Below are positions 16,212 through 18,944 of a stretch of 21,949 nucleotides of DNA, piece after piece. The notes under the pieces are model-generated. The model saw only the letters and a program-made list of their open reading frames with translations, searched no databases and was not told where the DNA came from. Location of the stretch: positions 1-21,949 of IMG/VR virus record IMGVR_UViG_3300006802_000667; one strand, given 5' to 3'. The DNA is from a virus. The first letter of the stretch is position 1. Each line of letters starts with the position of its first letter. The translations under genes and the position numbers were made by a program.

Positions 16212-16778
16212 CTACGTCCTCGTAATCTTTGCTTCAGTTCCTACAAACACACCGAACTGGTCGAAGTCGATATCCTGACCCGACTCAATACGGTTACGAA
16301 CCCACGCCTTCAGCGTCTGCGGATGGATGTGGGTTTTCTGTGCGGGGTCCAGTCCATACTGCTGGCGCAAGTCTTCAACGACAGAGCCGGCCATGTTGTC
16401 TTGGCCTGCGCTGAAGGACAACGTCACATCATTCTTGATGATGTCACCTTCACCAATGGAACGGAGCCACGCATACGCATCGTCACGCCTGTCATCCGGG
16501 ATGCGGGCGTGGACGAACTGACGAAGAGAAATCTTGTTACCGTCCACGGTAACACTTTCCATACCCATCTCTTCCATCAGAGCCGGGATGTCCTCTTCAT
16601 TCACCTTGCGTTTCTTGAATTTCAAATCCTTGAGGTACTTCTCGGCTTGCGAGATTTTCTCGTCGATCTGTAGGGATGCGCGGATCAGGGTCGAAAGGCG
16701 GGAACCTTTTGACTCATCCACATTGTCGAACTTTTGGGCATCGACCGCCTCGTCAAACAGCGAAAACACATCGCTCAT
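16212..16778 (-). CDS. Conserved coiled-coil protein of phage replication modules (188 aa)
   Basis: The ATG at 16778 has a perfect AAAGGAGA nine to ten bases upstream. Residues 37-60 form a charged coiled-coil helix (QIDEKISQAEKYLKDLKFKKRK), followed by EDIPALMEEMGMESVTVDG, then a domain with ARIPDDRRDDAYAWLRSIGEGDIIKNDVT, and an end with HPQTLKAWVRNRIESG and FGVFVGTEAKI. I recall this order from a protein found beside SSB and endonuclease genes in many T7-like phages, usually of unknown function. A structural partner for DNA replication or recombination proteins is plausible. Only four bases separate it from the SSB-like gene. Confidence 0.8.
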   Translation of the reverse strand: MSDVFSLFDEAVDAQKFDNVDESKGSRLSTLIRASLQIDEKISQAEKYLKDLKFKKRKVNEEDIPALMEEMGMESVTVDGNKISLRQFVHARIPDDRRDDAYAWLRSIGEGDIIKNDVTLSFSAGQDNMAGSVVEDLRQQYGLDPAQKTHIHPQTLKAWVRNRIESGQDIDFDQFGVFVGTEAKITRT

Positions 16779-16924
16779 CGTCTTCTCCTTTCGTTAAAGT
16801 TTAAGCCCTTCGGCTGTCGGGCGGCAGCAGACCAGAGGACGGTCGTAAGATCCTTGGTATACTTAGCAGTTTGACGGACTTCTAAGCCCAGTCCGCTGCC
16901 GCTGGAGGGTGATACATGAACCAA
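16775..16924 (-). CDS. Possible small ORF in frame behind the regulator (49 aa)
   Basis: After the TGA of the ribbon-helix-helix gene, the same reading frame stays open for 52 codons and ends in a TGA that overlaps the next ATG (ATGA). The first possible start is TTG at 16924; there is no ATG and no strong ribosome site, so initiation would depend on coupling or on stop readthrough. The product has a plausible helical segment, LEVRQTAKYTKDLTTVLWSAA, then QPKGLNF; its last codons NERRRR coincide with the ribosome site of the next gene. It may be a real small protein, a former C-terminal extension of the regulator, or chance. Confidence 0.33.
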   Translation of the reverse strand: MVHVSPSSGSGLGLEVRQTAKYTKDLTTVLWSAAARQPKGLNFNERRRR

Positions 16925-16933
16925 GGTCCACGA

Positions 16934-17086
16934 TCAATCTATATTTTGTCCCTCCGATTCAAAAAACTTCTTGAGTATGTGGGCAACTTGTTTGCTTATA
17001 CTTCTGTCGTTCTCGTCGGCCATCCTTTTCAGTGCGGCATACATTGGCGCCGAGACGGCAACGGTTCTCCACTTATTCAAATTCAC
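16934..17086 (-). CDS. Ribbon-helix-helix (Arc/MetJ-type) DNA-binding regulator (50 aa)
   Basis: Start chosen at the GTG at 17086, which has a perfect GAGGAG seven bases upstream; a longer GTG start at 17125 would lack any ribosome site and would overlap a promoter. The product has one strand (WRTVAVSA, residues 6-13), helix A (MYAALKRMADEND) and helix B (SISKQVAHILKKFFES), the canonical Arc layout of a dimeric repressor that inserts its paired strands into the major groove. Length equals the Arc class. It is divergent from the nuclease gene at 17159 with 72 bases between, which contain a promoter-like sequence and an inverted repeat, so autoregulation and control of the nuclease are likely but unproven. 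Confidence 0.85.
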   Translation of the reverse strand: MNLNKWRTVAVSAPMYAALKRMADENDRSISKQVAHILKKFFESEGQNID

Positions 17087-17100
17087 CTGTTTACTCCTCG

Positions 17101-17125
17101 GTGCGTGTCTGTTACGGTCACTCAC
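17101..17125. promoter_or_regulatory. Imperfect inverted repeat, candidate operator of the RHH regulator
   Basis: GTGCGTG (17101-17107) and CACTCAC (17119-17125) are inverted repeats matching at six of seven positions, with centres 18 bp apart. The site overlaps the -10 region and the expected transcription start of the regulator's own promoter. Paired half-sites in this size range suit two dimers of an Arc-type protein. Binding is inferred. Confidence 0.4.
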
Positions 17126-17151
17126 AATAATCTACACAACGGGGAAGTCAA
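17124..17151 (-). promoter_or_regulatory. Sigma70-like promoter for the RHH regulator operon
   Basis: On the minus strand TTGACT (17151-17146) is followed after 16 bases by TATTGT (17129-17124). The -35 matches the consensus at five of six positions, the -10 at four of six. Transcription would begin around 17117 and give a leader of roughly 30 bases holding the GAGGAG of the GTG start at 17086. It could drive the regulator and, by read-through, the coiled-coil, SSB-like and primase genes. Confidence 0.45.
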
Positions 17152-17158
17152 CAACATT

Positions 17159-17611
17159 ATGCGACCACACAACAAAAATCGAGATGGTAAGCGATCCGAA
17201 CTGCTTGCAGCCGAGTGGCTGTTCTCTCAAGACTGTTATGTCTACGCTCCGTACCTCGAACAGGGGCCAATCGACCTGATTGCTGTGTCCCCGAACGGCA
17301 AGACCCACTATTTTGACGTAAAAACACACAGCTTCCGGGCCAGTGGCACACCAATCTCTCGCAAGTTGACCGACCAGCAGCGCAAGCTAGGCGTTCGGCT
17401 GCTGTATGTGGACCTCGAGACTGGACGAGTGGGCCTGTACCCGCATCAGTTGCAGAACAACGAAGAGTCCACACGCAATGCGATGAACCGTGCGTTCAAG
17501 GGGAAGAAACCTCCAACCATTTCCGAGCTTCTTCACCCAACGCCTTCGCCGATAGATCAATCTTGTCCCGAAGAGCACGAACAATCCGCTGATCAATCGA
17601 ACCCGGAGTGA
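17159..17611 (+). CDS. PD-(D/E)XK nuclease, Holliday-junction-resolvase-like (150 aa)
   Basis: The sole plus-strand gene in the right half. The ATG at 17159 fits the start of the domain; GGGGA lies upstream at loose spacing. Glu14 in a first helix (GKRSELLAAEWL), Asp39 (GPIDLIAV) and Asp53/Lys55 (YFDVKT) form the E-D-DxK metal site of the PD-(D/E)XK fold, as in Hjc-type resolvases. Length of the conserved part, about 100 residues, fits such minimal nucleases; phages use them to resolve recombination and packaging intermediates. A restriction-like or anti-host role is possible. The last 38 residues (Pro/Ser/Glu-rich, after KGKKPPT) are encoded antisense to the helicase 3' end and look like an added tail. 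A longer frame opens at 16916 with a good ribosome site but crosses the regulator antisense; I reject it. Confidence 0.8.
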   Translation: MRPHNKNRDGKRSELLAAEWLFSQDCYVYAPYLEQGPIDLIAVSPNGKTHYFDVKTHSFRASGTPISRKLTDQQRKLGVRLLYVDLETGRVGLYPHQLQNNEESTRNAMNRAFKGKKPPTISELLHPTPSPIDQSCPEEHEQSADQSNPE

Positions 17612-18944
17612 TCAGGTCAACGTAAGTCACTCGATTGTCCTGTCCAATCCGGTGACACCGATCCTCGGACTGCATCCGTGTAGCCAAGTCGAAGTCGTTG
17701 GCGTAGTAGATCACGTTTGTTGCAGCCGTCAGCGTCAGGCCGAAGCCTGCGGTCTGTGGGTTTGCCACAAAGAACCGAGCATCCCCAAACTGAAAGTCCT
17801 TGATCGCCTGCTGGCGTTGTTCATCGGTCGTGTCCCCGAAATATGTGACCACGGACCCCGGTCCATGGACCCTTTGGATCTCGGCTTGTATCTTCTTGAT
17901 GTCGTATCGGAATCGTGACCAGATGATAACCTTGCCGGTCATCTCCTCGATGGCCTCCATCAGTGCGCCGATACGCTTCGACGGAATCTCGATCAAGTCC
18001 CCATCGTCAGTGCGAATGTGTCCGCACAACACTTGCTGCAAGCGCAGCAGTTGCGTGATCACAGCCGGCGCCGTCACCAAATCGCCGTTGTCGAACATGG
18101 CGATGGCTTGCTTTTTCAATGTCAGATAGTGCTGTCGCTGCTCGTCGGTGACGCTCACCTCTCGGGTGACGTACACCTTGTCAGGCAGGTCTAGTGCTTC
18201 TTCCTTGGTGACCCGGTAGGAAAACGTGTCAAGTTTCTCCGATAGTTCTTCCAGATTCCTGTAGCCCACGATCTGAAGGAAACTATGCGATCCCATACGT
18301 TGTGTTTTTGTAACTGCATAACGCCCCTGAAAAGAATAGTAAGAGTCAAAGCCGAGCAACGACTTATCCATGAATCCACATTGTGCGTACAAATCCATCG
18401 GTGACTTGGTAATAGGTGACCCCGTCAGGATGCGTTTGTATGCAGCTTTTTTACCGAAAACGACCAACGTCTTAGTGCGCTTGGCTTTGGGATTCTTGAT
18501 TGTAGTGGACTCATCAACAGCAAGTAAGAAACTGCTGCCCTGTGTGAACGCGCCCATAAATGCGGGCAGCTTTTTAGACGCGAACCCTTCCACGTTTGCC
18601 AACAGGATGCGGAGGACGCCACGCTCTTGAATGCCAGACTTGAGACGCTCGGCTTGCGACTTGTTGGGACTCGGATTCCATACATAAACCTCGTGCGGAA
18701 CATTCTCGGGGAAGTGGGTGGGAATCTCCAAATCATCCCAGTTGCGGTAAACACCTTTCGGCGCAACCACAACCGCTGTGTCAATGCGCCCCTGCTCGTA
18801 GAGCCAGACGATGTTGTCAATAAGTACCTTCGACTTGCCACAGCCCATCTCCATAAAATAGCCGTAGTTGCGTTTGTCATGCGAACGCTCCAGAGCCTTA
18901 CGCTGGTGTGCATAAGGCTCTGTGCGATAATTAAACTTCACCAT
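17496..18944 (-). CDS. SNF2-like superfamily 2 helicase/translocase (482 aa)
   Basis: ATP-dependent DNA translocase. A Q-type motif YAHQRKAL at 11-18 leads to motif I MGCGKS at 33-38 (Lys37); motif II is DEST at 144-147 in place of DEAH; motif III is LTGSP at 173-177; the C-terminal RecA lobe holds IIWSRFR, the motif V-like TAGFGLTLTAA, and motif VI DRCHRIGQ at 428-435, a hallmark of the SNF2/RapA group. Size suits phage SNF2-like proteins without extra domains. Possible tasks are fork remodelling, stripping proteins from DNA, or recombination, together with the neighbouring nuclease. The start overlaps the upstream gene by 14 bases; the last 116 bases overlap the nuclease gene on the other strand. 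Confidence 0.93.
   Translation of the reverse strand: MVKFNYRTEPYAHQRKALERSHDKRNYGYFMEMGCGKSKVLIDNIVWLYEQGRIDTAVVVAPKGVYRNWDDLEIPTHFPENVPHEVYVWNPSPNKSQAERLKSGIQERGVLRILLANVEGFASKKLPAFMGAFTQGSSFLLAVDESTTIKNPKAKRTKTLVVFGKKAAYKRILTGSPITKSPMDLYAQCGFMDKSLLGFDSYYSFQGRYAVTKTQRMGSHSFLQIVGYRNLEELSEKLDTFSYRVTKEEALDLPDKVYVTREVSVTDEQRQHYLTLKKQAIAMFDNGDLVTAPAVITQLLRLQQVLCGHIRTDDGDLIEIPSKRIGALMEAIEEMTGKVIIWSRFRYDIKKIQAEIQRVHGPGSVVTYFGDTTDEQRQQAIKDFQFGDARFFVANPQTAGFGLTLTAATNVIYYANDFDLATRMQSEDRCHRIGQDNRVTYVDLITPGSIDQRIVRALRDKIDLSAKALGEEARKWLEVSSP

Follow-up and report, generated by a model that had tools for sequence, protein, structure and literature searches.

A core ribbon-helix-helix gene and a swappable nuclease cassette with a putative opposing promoter in the replication operon of uncultured phages

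A large set of uncultured, mostly marine phages carries, within the replication operon, a core and probably self-regulating ribbon-helix-helix (RHH) gene next to a swappable nuclease cassette, and on balance we favor the reading that the promoter of this cassette and that of RHH exclude each other. The stretch of DNA analyzed here, in the following called the window, comprises positions 1 to 21,949 (21,949 bp) of the IMG/VR virus record IMGVR_UViG_3300006802_000667. A first-pass annotation had described a divergent regulator-nuclease pair. Both open reading frames, of 50 and 150 amino acids, and the 72 bp gap between them were verified. The features of the locus are the following:

16212 to 16778, minus strand: gp33-like protein (DUF7307; Pfam E 1e-28), the next replication-operon gene after RHH
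16934 to 17086, minus strand: 50-aa RHH protein (Arc/CopG/MetJ-type), GTG start at 17086
17090 to 17118, plus strand: candidate nuclease promoter; -35 TTTACT at 17090-17095, 17-nt spacer, extended -10 TG-T-TACGGT at 17110-17118 (TGTTACGGT), conserved as TGnTAnnnT
17093 to 17100, minus strand: RHH Shine-Dalgarno GAGGAG, within CGAGGAGT, kept in relatives
17124 to 17151, minus strand: RHH promoter TTGACT-16-TATTGT; -35 at 17151-17146 with the conserved TTGAC, -10 at 17129-17124
17141 to 17147, plus strand: probable Shine-Dalgarno of the nuclease, GGGGAAG, which overlaps with the -35 box of RHH; GGGGTCAA/GGAGTCAA is kept just before the nuclease ATG
17159 to 17611, plus strand: 150-aa PD-(D/E)XK nuclease, ATG at 17159, with E14, D39 and D53-x-K55
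17496 to 17611, both strands: tail-to-tail overlap of the nuclease and helicase C-termini, in which the nuclease tail is encoded antisense to, and overprinted on, the helicase end
17496 to 18944, minus strand: SNF2-type helicase upstream of the cassette (Pfam SNF2-rel_dom 6e-15; PHROG 62 E 8e-116)

Neither RNA families nor tRNAs were found in the window. On the minus strand, no terminator-like site is present between helicase and RHH, and thus transcription from the helicase may also extend, in antisense, across the nuclease gene. In the window and in some relatives, the reading frame of the nuclease continues without a stop codon back across the RHH gene (16916-17611, 231 aa), and it is closed in others; the corresponding 231-aa plus-strand reading frame from 16916 was rejected, as it is not kept in relatives such as L014.

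The assignment of the 50-aa protein to the RHH family is confirmed by several lines of evidence. The Pfam profile RHH_5 matches the window protein with an E-value of 1e-3, which taken alone is below the Pfam cut-offs, and 24 of 26 homologues, the best at 6e-8. By profile, the protein matches Arc (E 1.8e-4), and its model (pLDDT 84) shows the beta-helix-helix fold with TM-scores of 0.76-0.84 to CopG/Arc folds. That DSSP assigns no strand to the monomer model is in keeping with a strand formed by pairing in the dimer. An alternative start at the upstream GTG 17125 (63 aa) would coincide in part with the promoter -10 and is not preceded by a good Shine-Dalgarno sequence; GTG 17086 is favored, since its GAGGAG is well placed and an equivalent start (GTG, TTG or ATG) is conserved in relatives. 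Both the RHH and the nuclease gene are under purifying selection (dN/dS 0.15).

In the nuclease, E14, Q35-G36-P37, D39 and F52-D53-V54-K55 are invariant among 24 diverse homologues. The predicted core follows the order alpha-beta-beta-beta-alpha-beta (pLDDT 67, i.e. moderate confidence, with 70-90 for most of the core), and the fold matches include I-Ssp6803I (2ost, the best Foldseek match, E 3.1e-3), Hjc (3.6e-3), SPARDA nucleases and VRR_NUC. The invariant catalytic residues, the predicted core and these top matches place the protein among the PD-(D/E)XK nucleases, as the first-pass annotation had proposed. No Pfam match above cut-off and no match by sequence in the PDB were obtained; the protein matches PHROG 5018, a family of unknown function. 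PDDEXK_5 gave no match to the window nuclease and weak ones to 8 of the 24 homologues (best 2.5e-4), with all family members checked scoring below the curated cut-off of 26.1 bits. UPF0102 matched 7 of the 24 (best 5.6e-5), while the window nuclease (E 0.02) reached 15.7 bits against a cut-off of 23.6. Named relatives of the nuclease, by DNA or protein, were absent from 50,697 phage records, matches in pelagiphages, obtained with a diverged homologue, are weak, and GTDB genomes yielded no bacterial homologue. Judged by these searches, the nuclease is phage-specific within the collections covered.

To survey the locus in relatives, a nuclease search provided 12 close viral contigs, a helicase search 80 loci, and further searches additional ones; most contigs in this comparison are fragments. 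The divergent pair is present in all 12 close contigs. A total of 125 distinct loci fall into 100 with a divergent nuclease, 8 in which it reads codirectionally with the helicase and RHH genes, 13 that lack it and 4 that the rule could not judge. Of the 120 loci in which the RHH gene could be assessed, every one carries it. The divergent pair is thus conserved in about 100 distinct loci. A nuclease without the regulator, which the first-pass annotation had named as speaking against the pair, was not encountered: helicase and RHH accompany the nuclease in the same divergent order in 80 of 80 nuclease-anchored loci. The reverse case, a regulator without nuclease, is represented by the 13 nuclease-free loci; hence, the dependence is one-way. 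The records of these loci, all of them fragmentary, contain no nuclease homologue elsewhere, and no replacement by RusA, VRR_NUC or PHROG 298 was found in them. According to a tentative helicase tree (FastTree), the nuclease state changes four times and absence is confined to two clades; the tree is compatible with insertion and loss alike. In two distant named relatives, a PHROG 298 exonuclease lies at the helicase 3' end, tail-to-tail and overlapping in HTVC023P (L097:1440-2180) and codirectional in DSL-LC04 (L094:4922-5632). Three further loci (L044, L041, L091) have about 0.4-1 kb of additional DNA between RHH and gp33. The Pam3 / PaMx11 replication operon (helicase, gp32, gp33, gp34) shares the helicase and the gp33/gp34 order, but its slot carries the PF23992 gp32, without RHH and without a PD-(D/E)XK gene.

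In nuclease-free phages TTGAC begins 16 nt past the last helicase codon, and where a nuclease is present the gene fills this helicase-to-TTGAC space. The ATG of a divergent nuclease abuts the RHH -35 box, and the stop codon of a codirectional one lies inside TTGAC. At the other end, divergent nucleases run 20-65 codons antisense into the helicase, whereas codirectional ones stop before that tail. Allele comparisons between near relatives point to exchange of the two genes independently of each other. The window and L001 differ by 4% in the nuclease and 3% in gp33 but by 39% in RHH; L018 and L004 differ by 5% in the helicase and 1% in gp33 but by 26% in the nuclease. Within the close clade, nuclease and RHH alleles are seen in all four possible pairings. 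From these comparisons we conclude that nuclease and RHH alleles recombine freely. In L174, helicase and gp33 are nearest to the codirectional clade and nuclease and RHH to divergent phages, so that orientation apparently changed here through cassette replacement. As judged from gene content and alleles, the nuclease is an accessory, swappable cassette beside a core RHH gene.

As to its function, the nuclease may be a homing or competition endonuclease, which we put forward tentatively. In line with this, the intergenic cassette is small and exchanged between phages, and I-Ssp6803I, a PD-(D/E)XK homing endonuclease (PDDEXK_5), combines the closest fold with the weak profile matches in homologues. 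In contrast to I-Ssp6803I, the nuclease is free-standing rather than located in an intron, occurs in most relatives with only two clades missing it, and stays below the curated PDDEXK_5 cut-offs. Insertion boundary and allele exchange fit homing; a polymorphic empty site was not seen among close relatives. A role as junction-resolving recombination nuclease is somewhat harder to support, yet it deserves consideration: with the archaeal Hjc resolvase and YraN/UPF0102 the protein shares the fold match, the catalytic E, D, D-x-K spacing, the UPF0102 matches and a location among replication genes. It differs from them in being phage-only, without a match in GTDB genomes, and in missing from two lineages whose partial records contain no RusA or VRR_NUC. 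Other DNA degradation could likewise be its role. The more far-reaching reading, namely that the nuclease represents a new, free-standing PD-(D/E)XK competition/homing endonuclease family, moving as an exchangeable, orientation-switching cassette at a single replication-operon site and held in check by a promoter head-on to and mutually exclusive with that of the RHH autorepressor, is conceivable, although we regard it as rather unlikely in this complete form.

We next turn to transcription control, beginning with the RHH promoter. Within the right arm of the window alone, promoter-like sites occur at chance level (8 against 7.9 expected), so that the TTGACT-16-TATTGT promoter claimed by the first-pass annotation, present on the minus strand, gains its credibility from conservation in relatives. 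Of 75 distinct regions upstream of RHH, 72 contain TTGAC at a distance of 40-95 nt from the RHH start, versus 6% of shuffles, and this holds for every arrangement (divergent 58/60, nuclease-absent 9/10, codirectional 4/4, not classed 1/1). By conservation, the RHH promoter is thus real and independent of the nuclease. The inverted repeat over the RHH start point reported alongside it, GTGCGTG-11-CACTCAC, did not stand up to comparison: its 6 of 7 matches are equalled in 53% of shuffled spacers, and several close relatives retain no more than 3-5 of 7. It was rejected as operator, and a repeat finder returned no inverted repeat of 6 bp or more. Across relatives, no RHH operator common to all three nuclease states was found. 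Upstream of RHH in the nuclease-free L201 and L202, the -10 is followed by ATGGA-N7-TCCAT, whose arms are constant and whose loop has partly changed; it is a candidate for an RHH operator or a leader hairpin.

A second promoter, facing the nuclease, is newly described here and was absent from the earlier annotation. A TGYTAC (TARCA) motif near the RHH start point, when aligned in nuclease direction, reads TGnTAnnnT with TT 17-18 nt upstream and therefore resembles an extended -10 promoter. It is present in 22 of 29 divergent representatives and missing from the other 7 (shuffle mean 1.6, maximum 6 in 2000), a count to be read with the motif having been derived from the same data and the representatives being kin; on the opposite strand it occurs in 0 of 29, and in non-divergent representatives in 0 of 7. 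The hexamers are weak (4/6 and 3/6, plus TG). Moreover, the -35 overlaps the RHH Shine-Dalgarno sequence, which alone could explain the conservation of TT. One might instead take the motif for the RHH operator, with the nuclease being transcribed by read-through or not independently expressed. Its position at the RHH start point is where an Arc/CopG operator would be expected, and L156 carries two 8-bp tandem copies. Overall, however, the motif shows no 8-bp periodicity of tandem operator boxes (z 0.6), and the 7 non-divergent representatives have RHH but no motif; together with the conserved TG..TA...T and its upstream TT, this renders the operator reading improbable, and we have reread the motif as the extended -10 of the nuclease promoter.

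If the nuclease-facing promoter is accepted, the two promoters lie head-on with 5 bp between their -10 boxes (17110-17118 on one side, 17124-17129 on the other), and the predicted start of each falls at or beside the -10 of the other. Hence, both are probably not occupied or firing simultaneously. Convergent promoters are described to interfere, occlusion included (PMC6593788), and phage 186 offers a similar case of convergent promoters with transcriptional interference. The locus differs from phage 186 in the 5-bp distance of the -10 boxes and in that no integrase was found; given this short distance, the promoters would exclude each other at the step of RNA polymerase binding rather than chiefly through elongating polymerase. 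The RHH fold, as the TM-scores given above indicate, is shared with Arc/Mnt (P22 immI) and CopG repressors. P22 uses two repressors of the RHH type for promoters that oppose and overlap each other. In contrast to P22 immI, the divergent partner here is a nuclease, no lysogeny gene was seen, and 13 records contained no integrase.

The reading that we favor can be outlined as follows. The RHH gene belongs to the core of a replication operon (helicase, RHH, gp33, gp34, primase). Most likely, it governs its own sigma-70-type promoter together with the genes that follow in the operon, the RHH protein probably binding and repressing this promoter. The nuclease cassette fills the stretch from the helicase stop codon to the RHH -35 box. 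In most lineages it is antisense, with its own candidate extended -10 promoter placed inside the RHH promoter and firing towards it, so that RNA polymerase bound to one of them would probably preclude binding to the other. Having the better -35, the RHH promoter should win first, so that little nuclease would be made during the onset of replication-operon expression. Subsequent shut-off of the RHH promoter by its own product would either free the nuclease promoter or close it as well, depending on operator position. Since the promoters overlap head-on, whatever occurs at that of RHH should carry over to the nuclease, and expression of the latter should be tied to the state of the former in the divergent arrangement.

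The proposal of the first-pass annotation that the regulator sets nuclease timing is thus plausible for divergent lineages, by way of promoter overlap, but such timing does not appear to be the dedicated job of RHH. That RHH exists to time the nuclease is an unlikely reading, notwithstanding the roughly 100 divergent loci, the overlapping promoters and the consistent presence of RHH wherever the nuclease occurs: RHH and its promoter persist in the 13 nuclease-free loci as well as in the 8 with a nuclease codirectional to the helicase, and the alleles reassort in four combinations among near relatives. Least probable is a toxin-antitoxin pair of nuclease toxin and RHH antitoxin, because, even though RHH proteins are common antitoxins and ParD_like weakly matches 12 of 26 RHH homologues, the 13 RHH-only loci and the free recombination of alleles argue against the stable co-inheritance of a matched type II pair, the genes have separate opposing promoters instead of one operon, and the 50-aa protein has no C-terminal toxin-binding extension.

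In conclusion, a core RHH gene accompanied by an exchangeable nuclease cassette amounts to a compact natural experiment on the orientation of genes and the overlap of promoters, in which a nuclease at one site faces its neighbor, is turned round or is absent while the repressor and its promoter remain constant. It would show how the geometry of promoters lets a phage restrain a nuclease that could do harm, and how cassettes of this kind swap between phages, and it gives context to PHROG 5018.
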